Below, piece after piece: positions 154 to 31,765 of a DNA stretch of 33,490 nt. Position 1 is the stretch's first letter; each line of letters begins with the position of its first letter. The stretch comes from Anaerolineae bacterium (GTDB lineage Bacteria; Chloroflexota; Anaerolineae; J102), in NCBI GenBank assembly GCA_027002405.1, contig JALWZT010000343.1:1-33490 (forward strand). Direction: 5' to 3'. The notes beneath the pieces were generated by a model, which was given only the letters and a program-made list of their open reading frames with translations, did no database searches and was not told the origin of the DNA. The position numbers and the translations under genes were made by a program.

Positions 154-438
154 CTAATACAATTCAAAGAAAGGATAAATAGATTGGAGTCTCTGTAATT
201 CCTGGATGACGTTTTCCGGCTGCGTATGAAGTCGGTTTACGATCATCTGTATGCTGACCCCCCGATCCAACACCTTGTTCCATGTGCCAAAGATTCTATC
301 CGAGGTATTGCCGATTGAATATGCCGTTATCAATACTTCTCTTCGGGCCTGGTCTAACAGTTCGTTAATCGTAGATTCAATTGAACGTCTGCCCGACCCC
401 ATCCAGGCAAGACCTGAGACAATCACTTCCACAGTCAC
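154..438 (-). pseudogene. drmC: Truncated DrmC-like phospholipase D-family protein (94 aa)
   Basis: ATGA overlap with the drmB stop; VLITAYSIGNTSDRIFGTWNKVLDRGVSIQMIVNR resembles the N-terminal PLD region; ORF stops before any HxK(x)4D motif and no HKD motif is found in the remaining 153 nt of the window. Confidence 0.6.
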
Positions 439-2213
439 GGCATATTCTCCAGCAACAGGTTCCTGTCAAGCCGCATATTCCGATGTTCACAAGACGTTTC
501 GGAGATCAGCGTGCAGGCGTAGCAGGCAGCGCCGTTATATTTCCCTTGACCGAAATGCTCTTCTCCACAAAGCGGATCATTGGAGCAGACATCGATATCT
601 TGCAGAGCATTCTCCAGAACGCGTTCAAATTCAGGCACCAGCGCAATCAATCCACCCAGGGTGCCATCGCCACCAGGCTGTGAAGTGAAGAGAAGAACGC
701 CGCCGGTTGCCTCTCCGCTTTGTTCATCAAAATCAATATATACCCTTTCCCGAATGGCGGCTGAGGAATAACCCGAATCGATGGAAAGCGCATTGATAAG
801 GCGGTGGGAGAGTGTGTGCCACCAGACGAATTCAGGATGAAACTGGTGGCGGTTGAAATCCTGAAGGGAAATGGCTGATACAGTGTATTCTGAGGGATGA
901 TTCCAGGCATGCAACCATCGTCCTGTTTCAGTACCATGCAATTGTAGTTTTTCTCCTGGCGGCAAATCAACAAAAATACCCTCCCCAAATAATTCCACCC
1001 CTGGATACCAGACACGGCCATCTTTTTCAAATGAGACAGGAACCAGTTCGGAATCCATGAGATTGCCAGCGGGTGCACGCCGGTAGCCCTTCTGCACCAT
1101 AACCACGCGGAGTCTGTTCACCGGCGTTATTCGCAATCGCCTGCCTGTGGCGGTGGTGATAATACGAACCTGGTTCTGGATGACCTCAAACTGAGGTGGA
1201 TATCCCGGAGCGTTTGGAGGGATGGTTCGTCCATGACTGGCTGCATTTTTCAGAGCAGTCAGTTCTTGATTTCTGAGTTTGAAAGGGTCGTCCGGTAGAT
1301 CCTGAAGCACGTCGGCAATGGCATTGGTGACCGTCTGATCACCAAAGGAATTGATCTCGTCAATCACTGATGAAGCCAGCAATCCTTCCTTAACAAGCCG
1401 CTGAAGCATGGTTATCAATTCGTCTTTTGATGATGGAAGAGTGGCAACCAATACACCGTAGATGAGTGAACGTTCAAGAATGCGATGTAAGACAGTATCG
1501 CTTTCCGGGATGGTCAGGGAGGTAACGATCTCAGCGATGCGAAGATTCGAAGCTCCGCGCTGAACAATACGGGAAGCGTGAGAGCAATTGCCAGGGCGAT
1601 AGGCGTTGTATCCAGACTCCTGTTCGGGAAACCTCCCGGAACATTGCCAGTCCCGGCTGTAGGCAAGCCCAAGATTGATAGAGGCGCCACAATTTGGACA
1701 CTCGATCCGTATATTCCGCAGTGACCCCCCACCTCCTTTCCATCGCAAATAGGACGGTTTGCAGTTTCGTTGCGTGTGTGGGATCATACCAATCCAGTCC
1801 ACATCATCCAGATGTCCGGCAGGACAGGCACGCACAAAACGCACCGCTTCCCTGTTGGCTTTGTCCCAGTTGGGTTCTTCTCCATTTTCGTTCCGACACC
1901 TGGGGCAATCTTTTCCTTTATACAAAATACCATGCCGGGTGCACAACGACCATTGAGGAAAGGGTTTCGTTTTGTAAATCCATTCTGCCTCTGGTTTACC
2001 CAGTTCCGCATTGGAAGGAATGCGTACGATTCCGGCTCCATCCAGCAATGCTTTCGAAAGACGCCGATCGGTAATCTCAAATTGCGTGGGAGATCGATGG
2101 TCGAAAAGGCCGGAATATTCCAGGGAGGGGATCATGCGAGGTCCATGAGGTCCTTCCAGAATAGCGCCCGGTCCATAGGTGGTAATGAATTGGGAACGTC
2201 TGATCTGAGTCAT
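435..2213 (-). CDS. drmB: DISARM DrmB-like protein, DUF1998 domain, zinc-finger clusters
   Basis: N-terminus RRSQFITTYGPGAILEGP; CxxC clusters (CPRCRN, CPNCGA); C-terminal GAACYACTLISETSCEHRNMRLDRNLLL typical of DUF1998/DrmB. Confidence 0.85.
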   Translation of the reverse strand: MTQIRRSQFITTYGPGAILEGPHGPRMIPSLEYSGLFDHRSPTQFEITDRRLSKALLDGAGIVRIPSNAELGKPEAEWIYKTKPFPQWSLCTRHGILYKGKDCPRCRNENGEEPNWDKANREAVRFVRACPAGHLDDVDWIGMIPHTQRNCKPSYLRWKGGGGSLRNIRIECPNCGASINLGLAYSRDWQCSGRFPEQESGYNAYRPGNCSHASRIVQRGASNLRIAEIVTSLTIPESDTVLHRILERSLIYGVLVATLPSSKDELITMLQRLVKEGLLASSVIDEINSFGDQTVTNAIADVLQDLPDDPFKLRNQELTALKNAASHGRTIPPNAPGYPPQFEVIQNQVRIITTATGRRLRITPVNRLRVVMVQKGYRRAPAGNLMDSELVPVSFEKDGRVWYPGVELFGEGIFVDLPPGEKLQLHGTETGRWLHAWNHPSEYTVSAISLQDFNRHQFHPEFVWWHTLSHRLINALSIDSGYSSAAIRERVYIDFDEQSGEATGGVLLFTSQPGGDGTLGGLIALVPEFERVLENALQDIDVCSNDPLCGEEHFGQGKYNGAACYACTLISETSCEHRNMRLDRNLLLENMP

Positions 2214-2219
2214 AACAGT

Positions 2220-5200
2220 TTATCTCCGGTCTTTAAATCCAGTGGTTTCTTCCACATCGCGCAGTGAATTGGGTGCGTTCTCAAAGGCCTCATCAAACCC
2301 ACTGTTGCGATGTTGGGCGTCGCCCAAGACGACGTGGCGTTGGGGTTGTTGCAGCATGGCATATTCGTAATACACAAACTCATCTGGATCGGGATGGCGT
2401 TGAGCGATATGGTGCCAGCGATCCAGCTCAGAAGCCGTTTCCTGGCTGGTCAGCCCGGGCGGAGGTCTTCGCCCGTCGGGCTGGTCAGCAGCACGATTTT
2501 CGAACAGATCCGGAAGGACATCCACCTCCTGTGAATGTCGGAGGTCCTTCATGATATATGCGTGGGCGTGGTATTTCCCGGACAAACGTTGCTGAACCCG
2601 CCACTCCTCGCTGATCGAGATGCCATGGATCTCCCGGGCCTGGCGCAAGAGAATCACGGTCAGAGGCCCGAGCCCCCGATCGCGAGCGCGAGGCGAGAAA
2701 GGAGCCACCGTCACTGGCTCCACATACCGGTAAAGGGCGCCATGATAACCGGTGAAAAATTCATAGTGGTCCAGATCGCGAGGTCGGGTTGCCCGAAAGA
2801 ACGTAACCACAAGCCCATTGGTATGTCTGCCAACGCGGCCGGTGGACTGAATGTAGGAAGCCGTGGTCTTTGGCTGGCCGTGCACTACCATCAGGCTCAG
2901 ACGGGAGACATCAACCCCTGTTCCGAACATGGAGGTAGCGAACACGGCATCCAGGGCGGAAGGAAGCGGATCGCCGACGCGTTTCAGCATGGCAGGCAGA
3001 TCCGTGGAACTGGCTCGGCTGGAAAGCTCCAGCCTGCTATATTCATCCAGTTCTCTGGTATCATTCCCTGCTCGATGTCGTAACCACTGAGGAATATCCT
3101 GGCGATAAAGGGAAAGGGCGCCAGCGAGTTCGCGGACAGCGTTGAAATAACCCACCAGAGTCCAGAAAGGATCAAGCTCTTGATCCGAAACCTGACCGCG
3201 AAGCTCCTGCGCCCGTTGCAATAAAGAAGCCCAGATGCGAACAATAGGGGTTTGCGCTCCCTTACCTGGAGCGCAGATGCCCACATACAGACGCCCCGGA
3301 CGATCGGTGTCCAGCGGATGAACGATATCGTCCGTGGCAAAGAAACGATCATCCGCGGTCAGGGCCGAAGGCGGGAACTGAAACAACCTTCGGGCGAACA
3401 ATGACTGCACCTGCGCATCCGCTTTCCGGACGGTCGCTGTCGAGGCGATGTATTTGGGGATGATTGTTTCTTCCCCGTCCCGTCGTTGACTCAGCAAATC
3501 GATGGCGGTTTCATAAAGGCCTACCATGCTGCCGAGGGGGCCTTCGATAAGATGCAGCTCATCCTGGAGAATCAGATCGGGAGGAGTGAAGGGCCTTACC
3601 TCGCGGGACAGACCGGACATTGGGGGGTGTGGCTGAAATTCTTTTTTATTACGATTGATCTCAGGAGGACAGCCCTCGCGATAGTACCCAAAACGGCTGT
3701 GATAATGGGTGACATTCCCAAAAAGCGAGGCCGCTTTCTCTTCAAAGGCCAGACGGGCGAATTTGTCCACTGTGGCGATGACCAGGGATGGCGCCCGGCG
3801 GTAAACCTGATCATCCACCGTGAAGGCGGGGATCGGAATGGCCCTTGCCCGGTGTTGAAAGTTTTCTTCCCGGAAAGGTTCCGGAATATCCTGCCAGTCT
3901 TCATCGAATGTCGCCACCAATCCTGGCTCCCGGTTTTCTTGCAGACCCAATGCCGCCTGACGTACCTGACGACGGCGTCCTCCTCTGGCATTTCTTCTCA
4001 GGGGGACGACTTCTGCCCAGACATGCTGGTTCAATTCGCAGGATGGATTGGGGCAATAAATCTCAAAATCGGCCTCTTTTTCTCTACCGTTTTGTTGTGG
4101 ATAGCTGAGGATGAAATAGCCAGGACGGGAGGCCCGGACTGCAGCCAGCCTGGCTTCGTTTCGTCCATCGATAAGCAGGGGGGCCACATCATCCTGCCAC
4201 CATGTATCCAGCCTCGCCGCAGAGATCCGCTTCTGAGCGGGAATCCGAAGGGTTATCGATAAGGTTTTGTATCCGCGGGCATGGAGAGAGATGGAGGCGT
4301 CAAGAACCTGACTGGTATCTGTTGGAGCGGGAATTACCGAAGGGATGATGGCGCTTCTTCCCCCCGAATACAGGAAGTGCAGTGTGATATCCCCCTCCCT
4401 CAATCCTTCAGATGGCACCGCCAGCACGCTGCCACACGCCGGACAGTGCGTCACCTGTGCTGGTTCGCCTTCCCCAATGATTTGATTATCGCGGGCGATA
4501 CGGACAAGTCTGTTGTCATGTCCCTGATAGCCGGAATGCAGTCCTTTGAGGATATCCAGTGCACCTGCAAAATACAGATATTTGCCACCCGAGGCAGGGG
4601 GAATGGGACCAAAGCTCTGTAGCCGATTGGGTGTGACGCCTCCACCCACCCAAAGCCCGGCGGAGAATCGAGTTTTTCCCCACAGAAATCTTTCTCTGGA
4701 TGAATATCCTTTTGGACGCCAGCCCGCGGGCTGCCCCTCCTTCAAGCCCTGCACCCGCAGATATTCGCAGGCGGTGATGACGCCCAGCGCCCGCCGAAAC
4801 TGCTGGATGGTCAGCAGGCGCAGGGTGTACCTGGAGATGACGCTGACGCCGCCCCCGGTCACATCATGCTCATCGCCACCACGAACGATGGCCCTTCGAC
4901 GCCGCAGCGCCAGGGTGAAAGCGGTAAGCCCGAGATAGGCTTCGGTCTTGCCGCCGCCGGTGGGGAACCAGAGCAAATCACAGAATTTACGATCCCCGTG
5001 ATGCGGCTGGATCAGCGCGGGCAGGTTGAGAAGGATAAAGGCAAGCTGGAAAGGACGCCATTTGAAATCGGCTCCCGTCTTACCCTGCTGTTGGTTTCGC
5101 CATTGAGCCTGCGTGTCGATGGCTTTGTTGGCAAAGCAAAATGCCAGCCGGGCCTGCCTGTCGCTGGCAAGCAAATCAATGGCCTCCTGCATCCGATTTG

Positions 5201-6371
5201 CAGCCAGATGGCATTGATCGAGGTTGGCTCGGGCGACCGATTGGAATCTGTTGTCGAGTTCAGTGATTCTGCCTTCCTGTTCCTCAATCCATTTTCGATA
5301 TCCATCTACCAGGGGTTGTAATGCCTGGCGCAACGCTTCCGGTTCCCAGAGTTCAGCCAGTTCCGCGGGACGGAGTTCGGGCTCCGAACCATACCTGTCA
5401 TTCCAGCCCATTTCAGGCGCCTGGATGGGGTAGATGGGCGTCAGTTCAGTGCGGACATCCGGGGCTGCGAAACGGCTGCGTGCAGACTCAGGAACGATTT
5501 CCGCATCAGTCCAGATGAATGGCGCTGACTGAGGTCTCTGTGCTTCATCGATGAAGGGGCGTTCGGGATCGATGTCTTTCCATATGGCTCCACACATATG
5601 CCCGCGGGCCATGGCCCGGTGTTCCCGATACAGCATGGACAGATTGCGATTTTCCCTGACTTCAGGATTATCGAAGTCCTCACCCGCCACTTCCCGCACG
5701 ATCTCTACCGGCACCAGCTTCGTTTGCGCCCCGAGATTCACCCGGATTTGTGGCTGGAAGACATAGCTTGAGGTGGGAGGACGTTTTTTGGGATCATCGA
5801 CAGGGGTGCGGTTGACCAGAAAAACCGAAACACGCCAGGCATCACCGGGTAATCGTCTGGTTCGAAGAAACAACTCAACATGAGGGTCGGGTTCAGGATG
5901 CCAGTTTCTTCGGTCGGCAGTGATGGCTATCTTGGAAGAGAGAAAATGATAAGGATGCCTGCACCATCCCTCCTCATCACGATAACGCGCCCAGGTGGCG
6001 CAGATTTCGATTTCGGGCGTCTGTCCCTCCGGCGCTTCCACCGTAAAAGAAAGCCCAATGGAATGCGCCAGAGAACGGGGGTCCAGAGCAGGAGAGAAGA
6101 TACCCGGCAGGACTGCAAATCCCTCGCTATGCTGATCCTCCTCGCTGCTGGACTCCTCAATGACCATATCCACGCTGTCCTCAATGCGATCTTCCAGCCT
6201 CAGGCCGGCCAGGGACTCCGTGGGTGGCTGGAGCACGCCTGTGATATATTCGGAGAAGGGATCATGGTCTGACGGCAGGCATTCGCATGGGCCTTCACGG
6301 GGGCCCAACACTTCTTTGACCAGGGCAACCAGCATTTCATTGCGTACGTTCATGCGACAATTCCTCTTCAT
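2220..6371 (-). CDS. drmA: DISARM DrmA-like large helicase
   Basis: Walker A region CDLLWFPTGGGKTEAYLGLTAF; LILQDELHLIEGPLGSMVGLYE; helicase C motif ATSMFGTGVDVSRLSLMVVHGQPKTTASYIQSTGRVGR; 1383 aa; directly upstream of the DUF1998 gene. Confidence 0.85.
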   Translation of the reverse strand: MKRNCRMNVRNEMLVALVKEVLGPREGPCECLPSDHDPFSEYITGVLQPPTESLAGLRLEDRIEDSVDMVIEESSSEEDQHSEGFAVLPGIFSPALDPRSLAHSIGLSFTVEAPEGQTPEIEICATWARYRDEEGWCRHPYHFLSSKIAITADRRNWHPEPDPHVELFLRTRRLPGDAWRVSVFLVNRTPVDDPKKRPPTSSYVFQPQIRVNLGAQTKLVPVEIVREVAGEDFDNPEVRENRNLSMLYREHRAMARGHMCGAIWKDIDPERPFIDEAQRPQSAPFIWTDAEIVPESARSRFAAPDVRTELTPIYPIQAPEMGWNDRYGSEPELRPAELAELWEPEALRQALQPLVDGYRKWIEEQEGRITELDNRFQSVARANLDQCHLAANRMQEAIDLLASDRQARLAFCFANKAIDTQAQWRNQQQGKTGADFKWRPFQLAFILLNLPALIQPHHGDRKFCDLLWFPTGGGKTEAYLGLTAFTLALRRRRAIVRGGDEHDVTGGGVSVISRYTLRLLTIQQFRRALGVITACEYLRVQGLKEGQPAGWRPKGYSSRERFLWGKTRFSAGLWVGGGVTPNRLQSFGPIPPASGGKYLYFAGALDILKGLHSGYQGHDNRLVRIARDNQIIGEGEPAQVTHCPACGSVLAVPSEGLREGDITLHFLYSGGRSAIIPSVIPAPTDTSQVLDASISLHARGYKTLSITLRIPAQKRISAARLDTWWQDDVAPLLIDGRNEARLAAVRASRPGYFILSYPQQNGREKEADFEIYCPNPSCELNQHVWAEVVPLRRNARGGRRRQVRQAALGLQENREPGLVATFDEDWQDIPEPFREENFQHRARAIPIPAFTVDDQVYRRAPSLVIATVDKFARLAFEEKAASLFGNVTHYHSRFGYYREGCPPEINRNKKEFQPHPPMSGLSREVRPFTPPDLILQDELHLIEGPLGSMVGLYETAIDLLSQRRDGEETIIPKYIASTATVRKADAQVQSLFARRLFQFPPSALTADDRFFATDDIVHPLDTDRPGRLYVGICAPGKGAQTPIVRIWASLLQRAQELRGQVSDQELDPFWTLVGYFNAVRELAGALSLYRQDIPQWLRHRAGNDTRELDEYSRLELSSRASSTDLPAMLKRVGDPLPSALDAVFATSMFGTGVDVSRLSLMVVHGQPKTTASYIQSTGRVGRHTNGLVVTFFRATRPRDLDHYEFFTGYHGALYRYVEPVTVAPFSPRARDRGLGPLTVILLRQAREIHGISISEEWRVQQRLSGKYHAHAYIMKDLRHSQEVDVLPDLFENRAADQPDGRRPPPGLTSQETASELDRWHHIAQRHPDPDEFVYYEYAMLQQPQRHVVLGDAQHRNSGFDEAFENAPNSLRDVEETTGFKDRR

Positions 6372-7035
6372 GTTTGGAGAAGTGGCACCATGACAACAAC
6401 GGACAGGTGTTGCAATGGGGCGGTTTGCGTTTCAGGCAGACCAGATGGGCCAGGTCCAGAAGAGCATAGTTGAAAGCCCGGGGTTCTTCGTGATCGAGCA
6501 GAGCGGCCAGGGCCTTCTGGAACCGTTTGCTGCGTCGCGAGGAATCTTTGACCTCCCAGCCAAGCAGCCTGCCTGTGACCCGAACCGTGTTGGTGTCCAT
6601 AAGGACTTCCGGCTTATTCCAGGCAAAACAGCGAACAGCCCCGGCGATGTACTCACTGACACCGGGCAAAGTCAGCAGGTCTTTTTTATTGTGAGGGATC
6701 TGTCCGCCAAAATCCTGTTCAATGCGTTGAGCCATTTCATAGAGGAGATCCACGCGCCAGCGCAGCCCCAGAGAATAAAGCGCCTCATGCAGGCTTTCTT
6801 TATCCGCCTGCGCCAGTGTATGGATGTTGGGATACCTGGCGATGAACGACTCATACACCGGTTTCATCTGCTTCACCTGTGTGCGATGAAGCAAGATTTC
6901 TGCTACCAGAATGCGATAGGGATCAGTGGTAAGTCGCCAGGGAAATGGTCGAAAATGTTTTTTCCCCCAGGAGATCAGATTCTGACGAACCTGCTGGATT
7001 TCGGATGATGACAGAGGGATGACCAGGGATTTCAT
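6337..7035 (-). CDS. HhH-GPD DNA glycosylase with 4Fe-4S motif (MutY/Nth superfamily, Mig-like candidate)
   Basis: LPGVSEYIAGAVRCFAW (HhH with Tyr where EndoIII has the catalytic Lys), MDTNTVRVTGRLLG (catalytic Asp region), CLKRKPPHCNTCPLLSWC (Fe-S). Start taken at 7035 because its ATG overlaps the methyltransferase stop as ATGA. Confidence 0.85.
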   Translation of the reverse strand: MKSLVIPLSSSEIQQVRQNLISWGKKHFRPFPWRLTTDPYRILVAEILLHRTQVKQMKPVYESFIARYPNIHTLAQADKESLHEALYSLGLRWRVDLLYEMAQRIEQDFGGQIPHNKKDLLTLPGVSEYIAGAVRCFAWNKPEVLMDTNTVRVTGRLLGWEVKDSSRRSKRFQKALAALLDHEEPRAFNYALLDLAHLVCLKRKPPHCNTCPLLSWCHFSKHEEELSHERTQ

Positions 7036-8048
7036 CTGGTTCTCTTCCCGGATTCCTGTTCTCCTGCTGATGTAAGCGCCCGAATGATGGCCGTCATCAC
7101 AGGCGGGCACACTGCATTGCCCAGCAGGTGAATTTTCTGTCTCCGATTGCCATGTTCAAGCCTGAATTCAGGCGGAAACCCCATGGCGGTCTGGAGTTCA
7201 GGCGGTTGCAACATGCGCATCATGTGGCCGCCATTGCCATCTGGCTTCACCAGAGCAAACCTGTCCAGAGTGGTGATGGTGCGCAAAGGAGCTTCCAATC
7301 GCTGCCATCCGCCCGAGCCGTCTGAGCCATAATATACCAGCAGAAAGGGCGACTCCTTACCCAGGACCTGGAAAGCTCGCTCCGCCCTTGCCAGCGTCGA
7401 TTTCGCCCGTTTCGGTGTGACCAGAGGCGAGTATCGATAGTGACCGTTCAGATCGACAGCCTGCAACGCGGGGGGTGGTGAAGCGCACAGGGGGTGTATT
7501 TCAGGGGGTTCCTGCTCCCGATCGCAGACTATGTACAGGCGCCTGCGCTTTTGCGGCACATTAAAATCACTGGCTGTCAGAAATTGTTCCCGGCAATGGT
7601 AGCGCAGCGAGATGGAAGCCCGTCGTCGGGGGTGAGTCCCTCGCAGAATCTGCAGAAAGTCCTGATAATAGTCCCACTTCGTCATGGCGACGACATTCTC
7701 GATGACGAGCCATCGAGGCTGAAACACCTCGGCAAACCGCCAGACATTCCAGGACAACCGCAGACTGGCTTTTTCTCTCGCTCGCGCACCGCGAGCCACG
7801 CTGTGACTGGTGCATTCCGGAGACGCCAGAATCAGGTCGATATCACCGATTTCATCTTTAATTTCGCGGATGCGCTGGCGCGAGAGAGAGGCCAGGTCGA
7901 CGGGAAAGAACTTCGCTTCGGGGAAGTTATCCCGATACACCTGGCCAGCCAGCTCCCATTTGTCGAAGCCAGCCACGATCTCGACGCCGGCCGCGCGCGC
8001 CCCCCAGGAGTTGCCGCCGATGCCGGAAAAAAGATCAATGGCTTTCAT
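7032..8048 (-). CDS. drmMII: Cytosine-C5 DNA methyltransferase, DrmMII-like
   Basis: MKAIDLFSGIGGNSWGARAAG (motif I), ASPECTSHSVARG (PC motif IV), VIENVVAM (ENV motif VI), FNVPQKRRRLYIV (motif VIII), GNAVCPPV (motif X). Confidence 0.85.
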   Translation of the reverse strand: MKAIDLFSGIGGNSWGARAAGVEIVAGFDKWELAGQVYRDNFPEAKFFPVDLASLSRQRIREIKDEIGDIDLILASPECTSHSVARGARAREKASLRLSWNVWRFAEVFQPRWLVIENVVAMTKWDYYQDFLQILRGTHPRRRASISLRYHCREQFLTASDFNVPQKRRRLYIVCDREQEPPEIHPLCASPPPALQAVDLNGHYRYSPLVTPKRAKSTLARAERAFQVLGKESPFLLVYYGSDGSGGWQRLEAPLRTITTLDRFALVKPDGNGGHMMRMLQPPELQTAMGFPPEFRLEHGNRRQKIHLLGNAVCPPVMTAIIRALTSAGEQESGKRTR

Positions 8049-8067: not shown

Positions 8068-10095
8068 TTAAGACTGATGGTTGCGGAAGAAATTCTTTAT
8101 CAGCAAAAAGGTGGACAGCGCAAGCGTAATCAGGGAAATTACCATGAGAACAAATGCAAGGCCCGTGCCAGTCCAGTTCAGGGTCAAGAGATAAGAGGCA
8201 AGCAAACCAGGGGTCACGGTCCTGTCTAACTGATGTAAGTCAGCCCAAAAGGAAGGGAGCATTAGCAAAACTAGAACCATTGACAGGCTTGCAAATGCAA
8301 TGGATGTAAAGAAATTCAGTTTGTCTTGTTTCGATGTAGAGTCTGCCAGAAAAAGTTCATCCATGTGCTCAACGAGTGCATTTAAGTTGGCAATGTTTTC
8401 TGATGCATGTTGCAGCGATAGTGGAATCGCACAGGACTCTAGAAGATAGGAAGCCTTTGTTAGCGCGAATTCCACACGACTCCATGTTACAGGATTGTTA
8501 AGCGTTTGTGCAATAGCAAGCAGCCGACTGAGATTCGCTGTTTGAGAGATAATCTCATTAAACTCAAAAAGCAGATCTTCTGTTCTCTGTTCATCAACAA
8601 TGCCTCTTCGCTTTTGGTGCATCAAATCCACACAGCCCTGGAGTAATTGCGAGCTGGAATGTTCGATGAGTTGGGCAAGCACGCGAATTTCAGCAACAAA
8701 TTCAATGAGTCGCTCAATAGCCTCCCAGTATTGCAGATATTTCACACGGCTGGTTTCAATTTCAGAAGGCATGGTTGAGATAAATAGATCGCATTCCCTG
8801 GCATCCTGCGAAGGCATGATCAGAGCGACCCGAGAGTTCATAACACAAAGTTCATCATGCCAGCTTGCGAGATTGTTTTCTCTGAGAGAATCAAGCATGT
8901 CATCTCGCAGGTGAGGGAAAAACCGCCCACTTCCCGAGGGATTGCCGGAAGCAGATGGAGATCTCCCAGGCTTACGTAAAAGAGAACCCTCCAGGAGATT
9001 CAACAGTTTTCTGCGTACAGTGATGGAACCATACAAATCATCAATTGTTACAGGGACAACTCGTCTGAAAGTGCGCCCTTTTTTCTCCTTCTGTTTATCT
9101 GTTTCCTGATTCATCTCCGTGTTGCTGGATTCTTCATTACGTTGCCTTTCCGGGCTTTTTTTGTTTGAAGGTTTGTCTTCTGTCTTTTCCTTTTCTGAGT
9201 CTCTTTTCTCCGCCTGTTCGCGATAGGATGGTAAAAGATGAGGACTGGCATAAAGATCATCAATATGGTAGATGACATAGGAATCGTGGAGGGGATAAGA
9301 CAGTTGCGGAGGGGGTTCGACCAGATGAATGATTCGATCCCCAACCTGGATCTGATAATTTGCTGCCTTTACAAATGCTTTTCCCACTTCCATGGCAAGT
9401 TGCCATTGTGCTGGAGAATACTTGACTGTCCCTTCGATGTTTTCTTCACCACTCAGCCAGTCTTCTCCTCCCAGCCAGCGTAACAACTCTTCTACCGATT
9501 GTCTTTTTTCCTCAAGCAGGATATCATCATCTGCAAGTTTTTTCGAAAGTTGATCCAGCCAGTGAATTGCGCTTGGAATGTCAAATGGGGTCTGCAGGCG
9601 GGCGACGTCGGAAGCAAGCTGCTCCAATGGCGTTGCCTGATGATATTTTCTGACAAGTTGGATGACAAGCATCCCGAAAACAGAAGGACGAACAAAAATA
9701 TCCCAACTCTTCCAGATGGGAAGAAATATCTTTTTGAACTGGAAATTTGTTCGCATTGTATGGGGAAACTCATGATAATAAGCTTTCTTATTGAATCGAT
9801 AGACTGGCCCAATAAACGTCTCCAGTAAGTTTTGACGAAAAATCCCCGTAGCGAATCCTGCTTCCGCCGTGGTCATTCCTTCCTGAATGTCAGGGTAATA
9901 GAAACTATTCTCAGCAGGAAGAAACCAAACGCTCTTTAAAATTTGGGGATAAAGTTGATCTCGAAGGGCCTTGCGATAATCATCTGTGCCACGTAATGAA
10001 TGGAAAGCTTCTCTGTCTTCCTCCCTTACAAAGCGATTGAGGTTCATCACCATAATGACATTGGTGTGGCCGCGGGCGGATACGATGGCTGGCAT
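8068..10095 (-). CDS. Protein of unknown family (675 aa), charged disordered linker and two C-terminal TM segments
   Basis: ORF with SD AGGAGT upstream of ATG; linker EKRDSEKEKTEDKPSNKKSPERQRNEESSNTEMNQETDKQKEKKGR; hydrophobic segments SIAFASLSMVLVLLMLPSFWA and GTGLAFVLMVISLITLALSTFLLI near the C-terminus. Confidence 0.75.
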   Translation of the reverse strand: MPAIVSARGHTNVIMVMNLNRFVREEDREAFHSLRGTDDYRKALRDQLYPQILKSVWFLPAENSFYYPDIQEGMTTAEAGFATGIFRQNLLETFIGPVYRFNKKAYYHEFPHTMRTNFQFKKIFLPIWKSWDIFVRPSVFGMLVIQLVRKYHQATPLEQLASDVARLQTPFDIPSAIHWLDQLSKKLADDDILLEEKRQSVEELLRWLGGEDWLSGEENIEGTVKYSPAQWQLAMEVGKAFVKAANYQIQVGDRIIHLVEPPPQLSYPLHDSYVIYHIDDLYASPHLLPSYREQAEKRDSEKEKTEDKPSNKKSPERQRNEESSNTEMNQETDKQKEKKGRTFRRVVPVTIDDLYGSITVRRKLLNLLEGSLLRKPGRSPSASGNPSGSGRFFPHLRDDMLDSLRENNLASWHDELCVMNSRVALIMPSQDARECDLFISTMPSEIETSRVKYLQYWEAIERLIEFVAEIRVLAQLIEHSSSQLLQGCVDLMHQKRRGIVDEQRTEDLLFEFNEIISQTANLSRLLAIAQTLNNPVTWSRVEFALTKASYLLESCAIPLSLQHASENIANLNALVEHMDELFLADSTSKQDKLNFFTSIAFASLSMVLVLLMLPSFWADLHQLDRTVTPGLLASYLLTLNWTGTGLAFVLMVISLITLALSTFLLIKNFFRNHQS

Positions 10096-10124: not shown

Positions 10125-12947
10125 TCAGGTGATGTCATAAACCTTCAACACCTCATCACCATAATGGTTGATGACTTTGATGGCGATTTTGCCCGTGGAG
10201 GGTTTGGGGAAGGGGCGGCTGACGGTGCGGTAGAGGCTTTGCCAGGCCTCTTCGTTGATTTCCGCCTTCAGCACCCGCTGGAGTTGTTTGTAGGGCGATT
10301 TCATGCCGCTGAAGTACGCATGACGCACGAAGAAGCTCTCTTCATTATAATCGGTGTCGATGAACCAGCAGGCGATGTCGTCCACGGAACTGGCCCGGAT
10401 TTCGCCCGTGGTCGGGTCGTAAATATCCAGCCCCCGGATTTCAACTTCGATCTGATCGTCGCCCACGTCCCGGACTTCGATATCCGGCTCGCCGAAGATC
10501 ATGAACAGGTTGCCCGAGCCCGTCTTCTTGAGCAGGGCCTCGCCCATGGCCAGGTCCGGATTCATCCGCACGGGAAGCACTTCCAGCCTGCCGTAGCGCT
10601 TCGCCTCCTCTGAAACGTGGGGGTCAAAGGCGAAACCGCAAACCAGAAGCAGATCGAAGCCGACTCCGCGCACCGCTTCTTTGGCCGCCTCTTTGACCAG
10701 TTGCGGCCCGACCGTGCCGAATTCCGGCCCGATGGCCACGGCCACCCGTTTGATTTCGCCATCCTTCGTGGTGTATTCGCCCTCGGCCTGAATCCATGTG
10801 CCCGCAAATGGCTCCAGCATGTCGAACTTCAGGCGCTCCCCTTTCTTGGTGTTTTGCACGCCCGCGCGCCGCAGGTTGGCGAGAATGGTCTCGATGAATA
10901 TCTCCGCATTCTCCTCTTCCGCAGCCCGTTCGCTGGCCGGACGTTCCATGTCGGGGCTGATGATGCGGTAGGGGCTCAGGCTCTCCACAGTGAAAGGCCC
11001 GGTCACGCGAATGCGCTTTTTATCTTCATACGGCTGGTCGTAAAGGATTTCCTGGCCCGCGTTGCGGGCGATGGAGTCGTCGATCTCCTGCTGGCGCTGG
11101 CGGCGCAGGCTCCACCAGGCTTCCAGCTTCTTCCAGGCGTCGGAGTCGGGCGTAATGCCCTGGTCGGCCAGGGCCTTTTCGGTGGCCTGACGCTCTTTTT
11201 CCGTCTGGTAGGGGGAGGGCAGTCGCGGGATTTCCCACTCCTCCCAGTGCTGGCCCGTCAGCGCATTGATCTCCGCCCGCAGCTGATCCAGCTCGGGTTG
11301 GTAGCGTGCGTGGATAGCGTCGATTTCTTCGTTGTTGGCAACATCCTTTAGTTTGATATGTGGAACAGAGTGATAAACGAAACTTCTACGCACATCGAGG
11401 CCAAAGGAGGGAGGAATAGCGTCCGGGGGGATGCGTCCCAGTTCCTTTTGCTTTTTGAAGCCTTCGGGGGAGTCCGCCAGCAGATAGTAAGGGAATTTTG
11501 CCCCCATGAGCCGGGCCCGGGCCAGGGTCACCGCCACCCGCGAGGTATCGATGGTGATCCACCGCCTCCCCCACAGCTCGGCCACGTAGGCGGTGGTGCC
11601 GCTACCACAGGTTGGATCTAGAACAATATCGCCTGGATCTGTGGACATTAACAGACATCGTTCAATAATTTTGCTATTGGTTTGAACAACGTACAGCATA
11701 TCCGGAATTTTGCCAGCCGTATCTTCCCACCAATTTGTAATCTCAATAACAGGCGAGTCATCAGGAAGATAAAACTTATAGCCCAAGCCTTTTGGCGTCT
11801 TGGTTATACGTCCACTTTTTTTGAGCCGTTCCATTTGAATTTCATCCCCCTTCCATTGTCTCAAATAAGTTTCACCTTCGAAATAGAACTCAAAAGGGCC
11901 ATTAGAACCGCTGATTTTATCGACCCGATAAACCCGCACTCCTTCTGGAAGCAACCAGGGAGCGCGTTTTTCCTCGGAAGTCAATGCTCTCGAAATCCCA
12001 TCAGGAGATTCACAGCGCAAAGCAAGCTTGCGGGGGTCTTCTGTAGAACCCTCATTGATCGCTCGTTCTCTAAATATCTTTTTTGATTTACAGAGTGATT
12101 CATCTTTGGCATACCACAAAATATAATTAAACGCATTCATTATGTGTTTTGCCTGAGGTGAACCCTTTTTCCAAACAAGCGTAGAAATATGATTTTCGCT
12201 TCCAAACACTTCATCCATTACAGAACGAACCAAATGAACATTTTCATTGGATATTTGGACAAAGATACTTCCATTTTCATTCAACAATTCCCTGGCCACC
12301 ACAAACCGATCCCGCAGATAGCTGAGATAGGAGTGGACGCCTTTCTCCCAGGTGTCGCGAAAGGCCTTGATCTGCTCCGGCTGGCGCACCACGTCCTCCA
12401 CTTTGCCATCTTCCACCTGGCGGCGGTCGATGCGCACCTGCCAGTTGGACCCGAATTTGATGCCATAGGGCGGGTCGATGTAGATCATCTGCACCCGGCC
12501 CTTTAATCCCTCCTTCTCGGCCAGCGAGACCATCACCTGCAGCGAATCCCCCAGGATCAGGCGGTTGCTCCAGCGTTGTTCGTGCTGATAGAACTCGATG
12601 AGCTCTTCGAATTCGATGCCGTTGAAGTCATCAAACAGGTCGAGCTGTTGCGGCGCGTCCCCCTGATGCGCCCGCAGGTCCTCGATGATGGCCTGCGGCT
12701 GGATCTTCTCCTGAATGTAGATGGGCGGGACGGGAACGGCCAGGGGGTCCAGGTCTTCCTCATCCTTGCCCTGCCACACCAGTTGCGGGTCCAGTGACGG
12801 GTCGCGCGGATAGAGCATGGTGCGGGGCTGCTGTTCATCCTCAGCCACAAAATCCCGCAGCTCCTCGGTGGGGATGTTTTTGCGCGTCTCATCGTGAGAG
12901 AGATGGGTGACTTCTTTGGGGGATTGGGGTTTGCGTTTTCGGGCCAT
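10125..12947 (-). CDS. Type III Mod-like site-specific DNA N6-adenine methyltransferase
   Basis: RVQMIYIDPPYGIKFGSNWQV (DPPY) followed downstream by DPTCGSGTTAYVAELWGRRWITID; start set at 12947 (AGGAG 9 nt upstream, within the end of the upstream gene) rather than the longer ORF start at 13064. Confidence 0.85.
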   Translation of the reverse strand: MARKRKPQSPKEVTHLSHDETRKNIPTEELRDFVAEDEQQPRTMLYPRDPSLDPQLVWQGKDEEDLDPLAVPVPPIYIQEKIQPQAIIEDLRAHQGDAPQQLDLFDDFNGIEFEELIEFYQHEQRWSNRLILGDSLQVMVSLAEKEGLKGRVQMIYIDPPYGIKFGSNWQVRIDRRQVEDGKVEDVVRQPEQIKAFRDTWEKGVHSYLSYLRDRFVVARELLNENGSIFVQISNENVHLVRSVMDEVFGSENHISTLVWKKGSPQAKHIMNAFNYILWYAKDESLCKSKKIFRERAINEGSTEDPRKLALRCESPDGISRALTSEEKRAPWLLPEGVRVYRVDKISGSNGPFEFYFEGETYLRQWKGDEIQMERLKKSGRITKTPKGLGYKFYLPDDSPVIEITNWWEDTAGKIPDMLYVVQTNSKIIERCLLMSTDPGDIVLDPTCGSGTTAYVAELWGRRWITIDTSRVAVTLARARLMGAKFPYYLLADSPEGFKKQKELGRIPPDAIPPSFGLDVRRSFVYHSVPHIKLKDVANNEEIDAIHARYQPELDQLRAEINALTGQHWEEWEIPRLPSPYQTEKERQATEKALADQGITPDSDAWKKLEAWWSLRRQRQQEIDDSIARNAGQEILYDQPYEDKKRIRVTGPFTVESLSPYRIISPDMERPASERAAEEENAEIFIETILANLRRAGVQNTKKGERLKFDMLEPFAGTWIQAEGEYTTKDGEIKRVAVAIGPEFGTVGPQLVKEAAKEAVRGVGFDLLLVCGFAFDPHVSEEAKRYGRLEVLPVRMNPDLAMGEALLKKTGSGNLFMIFGEPDIEVRDVGDDQIEVEIRGLDIYDPTTGEIRASSVDDIACWFIDTDYNEESFFVRHAYFSGMKSPYKQLQRVLKAEINEEAWQSLYRTVSRPFPKPSTGKIAIKVINHYGDEVLKVYDIT

Positions 12948-12952
12948 GGACT

Positions 12953-15900
12953 TTACTCCTCCCGGAGAAACTCGCGGATAAGATTTTTCGCATTCCAGGG
13001 GTCTTTGATTTCCAGGAACGCCCAGCGGCCAAAACCGCCATGGTTGTTGATGGCGGGAACCCACAGGTTTCGGGCTGCGGCCACCTTCGCGGCCTTGTCC
13101 GCACGGGCCTGGCCGGAAACTTCGATGATCAGTTGCAGAGGATCATCCTCACCATGACCGTCATCGAGATGGACAATGAAGTCGGGCGTATAACGTTTCT
13201 CCCTCCCTTCAAAGGTGTAGGGAATGGTGAACCCGAGGTTATGGTTTTTGACGTAACGCAGCACTTCTGGCATTTCCTCCAGAGCCTGCGCCATCTTTTG
13301 CTCCCATGAGCCGGTGTCAGCCACCACATGCGAGACATGACATTTGGTTTGATCGGTGCGCCACACCGGGCGGGTGGTGTTGAAATCCACATGCCGGGTG
13401 CTGCCGATGGGATCATACGGCTGCAACCGCGGCAGCAGGCGAGGCGTTCCGCTTTCTGATTGCGCAATGGCCTGATAGATCTTCTCCGCCGCCCGATCTT
13501 TGAGCTGCCCGATCAACAGCATCTGAACAAAGGCGTTATCTTTGATGATGAGCTGCTTTTGGCGCCACGTCCGGACGATGTTCAACAGATCGGGGAACAA
13601 CCAGGGACGGATGGCGCCGCCGTCATCCTGAAAATAGCGTTCCAGCAGGCGCTTCGCCAGCTCAAATTCCACTTCCTGCACCCGTCGCATACGCAAATCA
13701 TAAAGCGTGTGCTCCGCAGTCTCGCCCACGATGGGAGCTGTCTCCACGCGGGTGGGGATGTCAAGCGTGGAGAGGGGCATCTCTGAATCTGGCGTGAATT
13801 TCGCGGTCAGCCGCTCAGGCGGAAGCTCGTAGCGATAGCCTGCCACCCGTGGGAAGGTGATCTCACAGGCGATGCGCGATTCCAGCGCCCGCACCCGCGT
13901 GGGGCGGCGGGGCGGCGGCGCGGGCTTGGGCGCTTCCCGGGTGGGGATGAAGGAAAATGGCACGCCGTACACCTCGGCATATTCCACTGGAAAGGCCTCG
14001 ATGGTGACGGGCTCGCCCTCCACCTCGACAGTAAGGGGTTGCGTTTCGTAACTGATGCGGCGCAATCCCCTGCCCACCACCTGCTCGCACAGCAGTTGCG
14101 TGCCAAAAGCCCGCACTCCCAGGATATGGGTGACGGTGTTGGCGTCCCAACCCTCAGTCAGCATGGAGACGGAGACCACGCATTTGATGCTCTCTCCCAG
14201 CCTGCCAGGTTTGCCCACCGTGTTCATCACCTCGCGCAGCAGGTCTTCGTCGGTGAGTTTTTCAGGATCGCGGCCAGGGAATCGTTGTCGGAATTCCTCC
14301 TTGAAGCGAGCGATCTCGGCCGCCGCAGCCTTTTTGAAATCACTGCTCATGCCCTCGCCCGATTCCAACTGGCGACTGTCCACCAGAATCGTCACAGGCT
14401 TTGGGCTCCAGCGATTGCCGCCAGCGCTGGATATCACATTGCTGAACAGGGGAAGTTTTCCTGGCACGAGCACGGTCCTGCCATCGGGCAATGTCTTTTC
14501 CCAGCCAGCGATGTAATCGTAAATCATCTTCGAAACATTGGTGTTATTGGCCACCACGATGAACACGGGCGGGGGCATGTCAGGTTCGGCCTGCTTTTCC
14601 CATACTTCATGGTATTTACGGTAATTGTTGTAGAGACTGTGCAGTGCGCTCTCCAGTTTGCCCGGAAGTCGGGGCTCCCGGCTGACGTCCTCAGCCTTTC
14701 GGCCCTTTTTGGGCAGTTCGTCCTTGATGTGGGGCCACAGATGTCGATAGATGGGATAATCTCCCAGCATGGAGTTATCATCGATGGGAACCCGCGGCAC
14801 CTTCACCAGACCTGATTCGATGGCGTCCAGCAGGGAGAAGTCCGACACCACCCAGGGGAACAGCGTGCCCTCGCGATAACCAGACCCTCTCAGGAAAAAC
14901 GGTGTGGCCGAAAGATCGTACACCACACGGATGCCGATCTTCTTCTTCACGGCCTCCAGACCCGATATCCACACCCGGGCCTCTTTTTCATGCTCCTTCA
15001 CTTCATCCCGCTCATCCTTGCTCAGACCGGTCTTCGTCGCCTCTGGTTTATGTCGGTAGCAATGATGGGCCTCGTCATTGATGACAATGATATTCTTTTT
15101 GTTGCCCAAACCGCGGCACACGCGACGCACCATCTGGTCTGCCGTTTCGGTAAAGGGGCTGGTCTTATCGTTTCCCAGGAGCTCCTTCGCCAGCTTTGAG
15201 GTTTTCACGCGCTCTCGCAGTTGAAAGGCGTGATAGTTGGTGATGACAATTCGGGCCTGATTCAACTCTGACATGCGATCCGGGGGCAGCAGATCAAACA
15301 CCCGATAGTAGTTGTCCGGATCGGCTGGCAGCAACACTCGCAGACGGTCTTTGATGGTGATACCGGGCGTGACGATGAGAAAGGCGTCACCAAACCGATT
15401 ATCCTGCGGATTGGCCCGCTTGTTGAGCACATGCCAGACAATGATCATGGCCATCACAACAGTCTTGCCTGTCCCCGTCGCCATCTTGAAAGCCATCCGA
15501 AACAAATCGGGATTGGCTTCCCGGTTTCCCTCGCGCAATTGCTCGCGTATCCAGCCATCATTCACCTTGTGCGCCACCTCGGTCAGATAAATGACCGTTT
15601 CCAGCGCCTCAATCTGAGCAAAAAACAAACGTTTTTCCCGATCTTCTCTCTGCCAGTATTCCAGCAATCCCCGCGTGGTGCGGGTTACGCCCATATAATT
15701 CCCCTGCCGCCAGAACGACACCCGTTCTCGAATCTGATTGATGAGCTGATTCTCTTCCAGCCTGTCCGCAGTCCACTCCTCAAATTCGATGGAGAGTTGC
15801 TGCGCCTTCTTTTTCTTCGGCCCGGGAATGGGAACGAAATAGGCGCTTTTACGTCGCCGCGGCACAATGATGCTGGTAATCCCTTCGTCTGTGAACTTGA

Positions 15901-15964
15901 AATGCCGCTTGGGCTCCTCGAACGGCGAATTGATGACGGGATTGCTGATTGTATCGTTACTCAT
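12953..15964 (-). CDS. Type III Res-like DEAD/DEAH helicase with C-terminal PD-(D/E)XK-like nuclease region
   Basis: FKMATGTGKTVVMAMIIVWHVL (Walker A), IVINDEAHHCYRHKPEA (DEAH), EQVVGRGLRRISY (motif VI), C-terminal RYTPDFIVHL...LQLIIEVSGQARADKAAKV. Confidence 0.8.
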   Translation of the reverse strand: MSNDTISNPVINSPFEEPKRHFKFTDEGITSIIVPRRRKSAYFVPIPGPKKKKAQQLSIEFEEWTADRLEENQLINQIRERVSFWRQGNYMGVTRTTRGLLEYWQREDREKRLFFAQIEALETVIYLTEVAHKVNDGWIREQLREGNREANPDLFRMAFKMATGTGKTVVMAMIIVWHVLNKRANPQDNRFGDAFLIVTPGITIKDRLRVLLPADPDNYYRVFDLLPPDRMSELNQARIVITNYHAFQLRERVKTSKLAKELLGNDKTSPFTETADQMVRRVCRGLGNKKNIIVINDEAHHCYRHKPEATKTGLSKDERDEVKEHEKEARVWISGLEAVKKKIGIRVVYDLSATPFFLRGSGYREGTLFPWVVSDFSLLDAIESGLVKVPRVPIDDNSMLGDYPIYRHLWPHIKDELPKKGRKAEDVSREPRLPGKLESALHSLYNNYRKYHEVWEKQAEPDMPPPVFIVVANNTNVSKMIYDYIAGWEKTLPDGRTVLVPGKLPLFSNVISSAGGNRWSPKPVTILVDSRQLESGEGMSSDFKKAAAAEIARFKEEFRQRFPGRDPEKLTDEDLLREVMNTVGKPGRLGESIKCVVSVSMLTEGWDANTVTHILGVRAFGTQLLCEQVVGRGLRRISYETQPLTVEVEGEPVTIEAFPVEYAEVYGVPFSFIPTREAPKPAPPPRRPTRVRALESRIACEITFPRVAGYRYELPPERLTAKFTPDSEMPLSTLDIPTRVETAPIVGETAEHTLYDLRMRRVQEVEFELAKRLLERYFQDDGGAIRPWLFPDLLNIVRTWRQKQLIIKDNAFVQMLLIGQLKDRAAEKIYQAIAQSESGTPRLLPRLQPYDPIGSTRHVDFNTTRPVWRTDQTKCHVSHVVADTGSWEQKMAQALEEMPEVLRYVKNHNLGFTIPYTFEGREKRYTPDFIVHLDDGHGEDDPLQLIIEVSGQARADKAAKVAAARNLWVPAINNHGGFGRWAFLEIKDPWNAKNLIREFLREE

Positions 15965-19690: not shown

Positions 19691-20587
19691 TTACTCCACC
19701 CGCTCCATACGACCGGCTAGATCTTCCAATCGCGGTTCGGTATACACCAGGATTGTGTTCAAATTGCTATGCCCGAGCAGCGCAGCCAGGCCCCGCAGGT
19801 CGCCCGGATTCGCAGCCAGGTAGCGGGTGGCGAAGGTATGACGCAGTACGTGCGGGCCAAAGGGTTTAACGCCCGCACGACGGGCATATTTGGCCAGCAT
19901 CCGGTTCACGGCACTGCGATCGGTCAGCGGCCCGCGCTGGCCCCACCACAGGGAAGCGTTGGGATCACCGGCCTGGGGATGCACCTCCAGCCAGACGGCC
20001 AGGGCCTGGCGCACGGACGCGGTCAGGGGCACGGTGCGATAGCCGCGATGCTTGCCGCGGCGAATCACCACCTGGCCCGAGCGCTCGCCCAGGGTCGCGT
20101 CCCCCACCCTCAAGGCCAGCAATTCGCCCACCCGCAGGCCCGCGCCGACCAGCAATGCCACCATCGCGATATCGCGAAGGTTGCCGCCCGCGTCCACGTC
20201 CCGCAGGAAGCGACGCAGGTCGCGATCGGTCAGGCTCTTGGGCTGGCGGGCCTCGGGCCGGATGCCGGAGACGCCCGCGGCGGGGTTGCCCGCGAGGAGG
20301 CCCTGCCCGCTGGCCCAGGCCAGGAAGCGGGAGAGCGCGGTCAGACGCTGGTTGATGGTGGCGGGCCTGGCTTTCTCGGAGGTCTGCTGGTGCGCCTGCC
20401 AGTCCGCAATGTCGCGGGGCAGCAGCTCGTCCAGTTGAGGCAGGGCGTCGTAGGTGGCCTCATACCAGCGGGCGAAATGGGCCAGGGCGCGGTGGTAGGC
20501 GGCACGGGTGTGCGGGCTTTTGCCCTGGGCTTCCAGGTGGGCCAGCCACTGATTTTGGGCGGTGATGGAGTCGGTTTCGGCGGTCAT
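19691..20587 (-). CDS. Tyrosine recombinase/integrase (XerC/D-like)
   Basis: GAGLRVGELLALRVGD (first catalytic Arg), HVLRHTFATRYL (HxxR), GHSNLNTILVYTEP (catalytic Tyr); N-terminal SAM-like core-binding domain. Confidence 0.9.
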   Translation of the reverse strand: MTAETDSITAQNQWLAHLEAQGKSPHTRAAYHRALAHFARWYEATYDALPQLDELLPRDIADWQAHQQTSEKARPATINQRLTALSRFLAWASGQGLLAGNPAAGVSGIRPEARQPKSLTDRDLRRFLRDVDAGGNLRDIAMVALLVGAGLRVGELLALRVGDATLGERSGQVVIRRGKHRGYRTVPLTASVRQALAVWLEVHPQAGDPNASLWWGQRGPLTDRSAVNRMLAKYARRAGVKPFGPHVLRHTFATRYLAANPGDLRGLAALLGHSNLNTILVYTEPRLEDLAGRMERVE

Positions 20588-20763
20588 CACGATTATGTTG
20601 CCACTTTTTCGGGCGTTATCGGTTGAGAACGGGTGGGTTTCAGGACATTTCGACGCCCCAAGTATAGCATTTTCTGCAATCGTGCGCCACATAATACACG
20701 TTATGTTGCTACTTTATGGCCATCATCAAGCATGCCCCACTTCCCGTCTTCATTTTTTCTATA

Positions 20764-30507: not shown

Positions 30508-31434
30508 TTGAAACAGCGTGATTATAGCAAGCAATCGAAAAAACTTCTGTTTACCACCTTCAACTGCGCAAAATCGCAACTAATTCCGTTGCAAACCATG
30601 CAGGAAATGCGTAATGACGATTTGATCATGGCATTGACTGGTCTTGCCGGCGGTATTTTGAATAATGGTTCAACCTGCGGTGTTGTGATTGGTGGCGCGA
30701 TTAGTTCCGCTATGATCAGGGACAAAGAATTGGGCGGTCAGTGGACGCTCGAAGATGAAATTCAACTCCTGGATGAGATCAGGAGGGATGTCACCTGGTT
30801 TGAGGATCGCTTTGGCACTTCGTTATGCCGTGAAAGAGCAGGACTCAATTATGAAAGAATCACGGTGCTTGGATTGCTTAATCCCCGAAAGGCCAAGGGA
30901 TGCGTTGCCCGGGCCGGGGCGAACATGACCTATTTCGTAGAAAAATATGAGAATGCAGAGCAAGCCAGGGACAATCTCCCCATGCACGAATTTCACAAGC
31001 ACCCAGCGGAAGCCGCCGAACATTGCGCCCCCAAAATACTCAGGGAGATCCGAGATAAAACCGGAATTGGCAACGACTCACTGGAACAAATCTCTGTCGC
31101 TTTGGATGGTGGCCTGGGATTATCCGGAGGCGGATGCGGCGCTCTTTCAGGGGCGCTTATGGCGCTGGGTCTCAAGTATGCTCTGGATCCCCAAAAAACA
31201 GACCCCCGCAAACTGAGAAATATCTACAGAGCGATGGATTCCGAGTTCTTCAGGATGGCCAAAATCCTGGTCAGTGCGTTTATCGAAGAATTCGAGTATA
31301 TTGAGTGTTCGAGGATTACGGCCCGAAAATTCAACGACTGGGGTGAATTCAGTAAATTCAGAAATACATCCTCCTGTGATGCAATCAATCAATTCCTCGT
31401 CGATAAAACGGTTGAGATTATCAATGACCGGTAA
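30508..31434 (+). CDS. C_GCAxxG_C_C-like family protein
   Basis: TTG start preceded by [35 protein letters not shown] matches the GCAxxG-type motif; N-terminal [28 protein letters not shown] is a second related motif. Confidence 0.55.
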
Positions 31435-31765
31435 ACTGGGTGTAGATCATGGTGGTGCGGACGTCTTTGTGGCTGAGGAGTTCCTGGACGGTGCGGATGT
31501 CGTAGCCGGCTTCGAGGAGATGGGTGGCGAAAGAGTGACGGTAGATGTGAAGGGAGACGCGTTTGGGGATGTCCGCGCGTTTGGCGGCATACCGCAAGGC
31601 TTTTTGCACCACGCTGGGATCGAGATGGTGGCGGTGCCGGACACCGGAGCGGGGATCGGCTGAGATGCGGGTGGCGGGAAAGACCCATTGTCTGCACCAT
31701 TCACGAGCGGCATCGAGGTATTTGCGGGCAAGGGTGTCTTTCACTTGCATTGTCATTCCAATCAT
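31421..31765 (-). pseudogene. intI: Truncated integron-type integrase (IntI C-terminal fragment)
   Basis: [38 protein letters not shown] (IntI-specific insertion region) and [38 protein letters not shown] (HxxR...Y); N-terminal domain and first Arg box absent. Confidence 0.8.

Follow-up and report, generated by a model that had tools for sequence, protein, structure and literature searches.

The window, by which we mean the whole stretch of DNA analysed, is one entire contig of 33.5 kb. It carries a defence operon of eight minus-strand genes, which in order of transcription encode a BPTD_3080 restriction endonuclease (RE), a type III-like methylase, the membrane protein P0001, a DrmMII methylase, an HhH-GPD glycosylase, DrmA, DrmB, and a truncated DrmC. 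P0001, the third gene of the series, is separated by 29 bp from the methylase upstream and by 19 bp from DrmMII downstream. The features of the operon are the following.

12953..15964, minus strand: BPTD_3080-family restriction endonuclease/helicase (NF046055, above cut-off)
10125..13064, minus strand: type III-like N6/N4 DNA methylase (PADLOC MTase_III PDLC03632, E 5.5e-275)
8068..10095, minus strand: P0001, membrane protein of 675 aa
8068..8319, minus strand: two-TM C-terminal module of P0001 (residues ~593-675)
7032..8048, minus strand: DrmMII-type C5 cytosine methylase, starting 19 bp past P0001
6337..7110, minus strand: HhH-GPD (MutY/Nth-like) glycosylase (PADLOC "nicking endonuclease" class)
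2220..6371, minus strand: DrmA, long form (NF038326, above cut-off)
435..2213, minus strand: DrmB (NF038324, above cut-off)
154..438, minus strand: DrmC, truncated (94 codons, lacking the second half and its HKD (H-x-K) motif)

Several of the other genes deserve mention in their own right. The DrmC reading frame is 94 codons long and ends ahead of the catalytic HKD motif of the PLD type; either the gene is broken or the end of the contig accounts for this. In the DISARM loci L012, L014, and L016 DrmC is full-length. Three DISARM loci with long DrmA encode an HhH-GPD glycosylase between a cytosine methylase and DrmA (window 6337-7110, minus strand; L012:10705-11388; L016:6692-7450), and another one adjoins a cytosine methylase at L021:3043-3753. 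This glycosylase may repair deaminated methylcytosine (T:G) in a Vsr-like fashion or may be a restriction glycosylase. A DrmMII-like cytosine methylase with 51% identity is grouped at L018:11658-19999 with Mza-type genes (MzaB, MzaC), not with DISARM. Upstream of the RE, the window encodes P0008 (16542-18116, minus strand), a protein of 524 aa with a G+C content of 0.437, hydrophobic segments at both termini, and no family matches. A XerC-like tyrosine recombinase (19691-20692, minus strand) and an incomplete second one (31421-31765, minus strand) suggest that the window is part of a mobile island.

The open reading frame of P0001 (8068-10095, minus strand) begins with ATG and has no internal stops, and the plus strand of the same interval has many stops and is non-coding by a reading-frame check. 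Relatives with 34-40% identity cover P0001 end to end, from a shared start methionine through the second TM. This full-length alignment indicates that P0001 is a genuine gene rather than a chance reading frame. The translation and the hydropathy profile bear out the description in the earlier note of a 675-aa protein with a charged linker and two C-terminal TMs; under a strong threshold just two stretches pass, at about 593-620 and 638-670. The protein can be divided as follows.

Residues 1-295: N-domain, conserved, ~290 aa
Residues ~296-345: charged linker, variable among relatives
Residues ~405-592: helical/CorA-like C-domain
Residues ~593-613: TM1
Residues 614-619: PSFWAD motif
Residues ~641-668: TM2

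The linker is not conserved, since relatives mostly have gaps there (gap fraction 0.66-0.79 in columns 301-350 of their alignment). The G+C content of the gene is 0.451, compared to 0.51-0.58 in the adjoining R-M and DISARM genes, the truncated DrmC being excluded from this range. The sequence of P0001 gave zero significant matches in Pfam, NCBIfam, PADLOC, PHROGs, and the PDB, no catalytic or ligand-binding motifs were recognised in the N-domain, and no relatives with known structure were found. AlphaFold predictions for two parts of P0001, made from single-sequence input, were too poor for use (pLDDT 47.8 and 34.3).

A search of 399 Chloroflexota genomes recovered full-length relatives with 27-40% identity, plus weaker ones, and a four-row profile was used to search 152 genomes of one bacterial family. 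The distribution of the P0001 family is patchy (16 of these 152 genomes). Plasmids, phages, and viral contigs searched with P0001 and its relatives gave no matches, nor did a scan of genome contigs with P0001 as the query; relatives are known from Chloroflexota alone, the large-scale search having covered the 399 Chloroflexota genomes. We discarded weak matches to G218 and G203 as noise and left out a match in G414, which is located inside an ABC-transporter-like reading frame. The alignments comprise 16 members (A4; P0001 and 15 more from Chloroflexota), which are 530-675 aa long, and the 11 close members (A5).

Positions that are invariant or nearly so in the 16 sequences include G9, RG35-36, G80, and F86 in the N-domain, and EG369-370, W412, Y453, YW456-457, S615-F616, and D619 further on. 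The last three residues belong to a motif, SF..D (mostly PSF..D), whose S, F, and D are invariant, and which is found at the outer end of TM1 in all members. The two-TM module is made up of TM1, SF..D at its outer end, a short neutral or acidic loop, TM2, and a basic tail. Both TMs are called in 15 of the 16 members, the exception being L146, whose TM2 falls under the hydropathy threshold. Among these 15 the loop carries a charge of 0 to -3 and the tail one of +2 to +9, which leads to a predicted topology with both termini inside (N-in/C-in). P0001 belongs to an unnamed, patchily distributed family of membrane-anchored proteins that repeatedly adjoin defence genes.

The known proteins that this architecture most calls to mind are the CorA magnesium channels (PF01544), homopentamers that conduct ions and carry a GMN motif at the outer end of TM1. 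The likeness includes a helical region leading into TM1, a motif at the end of TM1, a short loop, TM2, a basic tail, and the predicted N-in/C-in topology. We aligned 14 CorA proteins retained from related genomes and compared them with the P0001 family using hhalign. The comparison gave a score of 43.6, with a probability of 55.6% and an E-value of 1.2e-4; the alignment covers the helical stalk, TM1, and the loop after TM1 (170-183 columns), and places the PSF..D region near the GMN region of CorA. The close members alone scored 42.6, with an alignment that extends towards TM2. Real controls (n=92) remained well below these values, 38 families at or below 26.7 and 54 proteins with at least two TMs at or below 28.3; reversed profiles scored 29, and profiles shuffled in 20-column windows at most 24. 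The probability of 52-56% and E-value of about 1e-4 should be read together with one of 25 shuffles in 10-column windows, which reached 40.3. The PADLOC "CorA-like" model matched weakly in two of the 16 members (best E 0.02). The C-terminal part of the P0001 family appears CorA-like in profile.

The CorA-like topology proposed in the earlier note finds support as a resemblance, with a score of 43.6 against at most 28.3 in the real controls, but two marks of the CorA family itself are missing: neither P0001 nor any of the 16 members matches Pfam CorA at E-values up to 0.1, and SF..D, in P0001 PSFWAD, replaces GMN at the outer end of TM1. The family also differs from CorA in its large N-domain, in a length up to twice that of CorA, and in its defence context. 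P0001 therefore looks like CorA and may work like it, but an identity as CorA is not established. That P0001 is an ordinary ion transporter, of the CorA type or another, without a role in defence is highly improbable in our estimation; the CorA-like profile across stalk and TMs would fit a transporter, as would four close members next to which no defence genes were recognised, but the same lack of GMN and of a Pfam match, the doubled length, and the placement of seven of the 11 close members in defence loci argue against it.

Neighbouring genes were annotated through a limited set of family searches, and "no defence neighbour" here means that none was recognised. The seven close members with defence neighbours are the three linked to methylases (in the window, L139, and L141) and those in L105, L140, L135, and L134. 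L139 and L141 encode relatives that are 34-38% identical to P0001. L141 has RE, methylase, and relative in this order, with the relative 33 bp downstream of the methylase; an insert interrupts the RE, and a transposase-like gene precedes the methylase. The L139 contig breaks within the methylase; the 30 C-terminal residues of this enzyme (ending in KIAVKVINHYGDEVLKVYEIK) are encoded 36 bp upstream of the relative. L105 contains an SNF2/PLD helicase, a type IIG enzyme, and two small genes, one of them PsyrA-like, followed by the relative. Adjacency to R-M genes thus recurs in diverged genomes, with type III-like systems in the window, L139, and L141 and a type IIG enzyme in L105. L135 carries pieces of a nuclease gene (PADLOC restriction-enzyme match, E 1.4e-6), which from their sequence appear DUF262/HNH-like, then a PsyrA-like gene, then the relative, and in L134 a CRISPR array of more than 40 repeats ends some hundreds of bp upstream of the relative. 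TIR, AAA, STAND/TPR, and radical-SAM genes are found together with a relative in L140 (1254-10878), all on the same strand, a gene set that may represent a defence system not yet described. Next to the relatives in L105/L106 and L134, related STAND and radical-SAM genes lie on the opposite strand.

The four close members without recognised defence neighbours (L107, L137, L138, and L142; the L137 contig is short) form a single clade with support of 99/99, or 99/100 when distant rows are added. All seven defence-linked members are placed outside this clade, without necessarily being monophyletic; with the distant rows included, the window protein is the first branch among the close members (80/87). 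The AU-test does not reject monophyly for the three methylase-linked members (p-AU 0.16). The relatives in L107 and L142 begin 3-17 bp from a tRNA-Gly/tRNA-Met pair.

The association with the R-M pair is not obligatory. P0001 is missing from about 20 other loci that bear the BPTD_3080/type III-like pair, which indicates that the pair does not need P0001 and that P0001 is an optional passenger. Elsewhere other genes occupy the place just downstream of the methylase, namely a CBASS phospholipase and a nucleotidyltransferase in Methylomagnum and a deaminase-like protein on Picosynechococcus pAQ5. This place looks like a cargo position, and compared with the other loci P0001 represents a new kind of passenger in it. 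The R-M pair with these other genes right after the methylase is located on plasmids (L023:11962-17448 and L025:12016-16747). Two post-methylase genes were considered as relatives of P0001 and rejected: the one on pAQ5, for its deaminase-like product, and the one in Chlorohelix, which encodes an unrelated protein.

DISARM consists of a methylase, DrmA, DrmB, DrmC, and auxiliary genes (PMC9142583), and the part of the operon downstream of P0001 is similar to a DISARM locus with DrmMII (the class 2 type) in containing DrmMII, DrmA, DrmB, and a partial DrmC. The earlier note took P0001 to be a DISARM-specific component or an analogue of DrmE, and its position directly before DrmMII in the same operon, at a distance of 19 bp, would agree with this. 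However, P0001 is not conserved among DISARM loci. Relatives are absent from three other Chloroflexota long-DrmA DISARM loci, L012, L014, and L016, in which the long DrmA is 56-59% and DrmB 57-60% identical to that of the window and DrmC is complete; absence from related loci is one part of what the earlier note had named as speaking against its own reading, and in these three it is what we find. Furthermore, the PADLOC DrmE models match neither P0001 nor any of the 16 family members, and L141 carries a relative with no DISARM visible in the stretch read (none is seen in L139 either, as far as the contig goes). A role as DISARM subunit is therefore not supported, and we regard it as very unlikely.

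Two further explanations concern the tie to restriction. P0001 might be a non-toxic membrane anchor or scaffold that tethers restriction proteins, and perhaps DISARM proteins, to the inner membrane, the site of phage DNA entry. The tight linkage to the methylase in three loci (29-36 bp) and the large cytoplasmic N-domain with its variable linker, which would be suited to protein contacts, are compatible with such a function; however, most R-M pairs of the BPTD_3080/type III-like kind manage without P0001, and the partners change from locus to locus (type III-like, type IIG/SNF2, TIR/STAND/radical-SAM, CRISPR array). Since the neighbours differ in this way, the family has no single conserved partner, and an anchoring role appears unlikely to us. 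The same variety of neighbours, together with the patchy distribution, the members next to tRNA genes, and a G+C content below that of the intact adjoining R-M and DISARM genes, could instead point to a gene of defence or of a mobile island that stands alone, settles in defence islands and at tRNA sites, and acts independently of what surrounds it. This explanation, too, we consider rather improbable, because the order methylase then P0001, with gaps of 29-36 bp in three diverged loci, exceeds what random landing would be expected to produce, and because a single methylase-linked clade is compatible with the AU-test.

We tentatively favour, at somewhat short of an even chance, the reading of P0001 as a membrane-anchored accessory to defence that moves together with restriction systems and provides an abortive back-up, rather than as a DISARM subunit. 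Travel with restriction systems is suggested by the recurrence of the order RE, methylase, P0001 in L141 and of the order methylase end, relative in L139. What we observe is the family, its predicted N-in/C-in topology, its apparently CorA-like profile, and its recurrent placement in defence loci; an effector activity is plausible, and we infer that P0001 probably targets the cell membrane as a defence of last resort. P0001 would oligomerise through its stalk in the manner of CorA, and the cytoplasmic N-domain would sense that restriction is failing, the cue being DNA that is damaged or unmodified, a complex that has stalled, or a small-molecule signal. P0001 would then open or disrupt the inner membrane, and the cell would be halted ahead of phage release, an abortive back-up to restriction.

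The CorA effectors of type III CRISPR are encoded with a Cas10 locus. These CorA-family effectors of the SAM-AMP system, which are thought to disrupt membrane integrity (PMC12255297), are the nearest precedent for the membrane effector that we propose. Both are CorA-like membrane proteins tied to a defence locus, with membrane disruption as the proposed action; however, P0001 is linked to R-M genes, no partner for the synthesis or degradation of SAM-AMP was seen, and PADLOC and Pfam scans revealed no Cas proteins among the ten main proteins of the window. A more specific version, which we regard as possible though doubtful, is that the members of the family are CorA-like effectors that form membrane pores and are built into R-M operons as a suicide back-up for when restriction fails, with an N-domain that would read the outcome of restriction and not a known cyclic-nucleotide signal.

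We did not find a description of R-M paired with membrane-acting abortive defence in the literature searched. If the proposed role of P0001 is correct, it would tie classical restriction-modification to a membrane-acting abortive defence, and the RE, the methylase, and P0001 form a compact operon in which this can be tested. The family, for which Pfam, PADLOC, NCBIfam, and PHROGs yield nothing significant, could also aid the annotation of defence islands in Chloroflexota.
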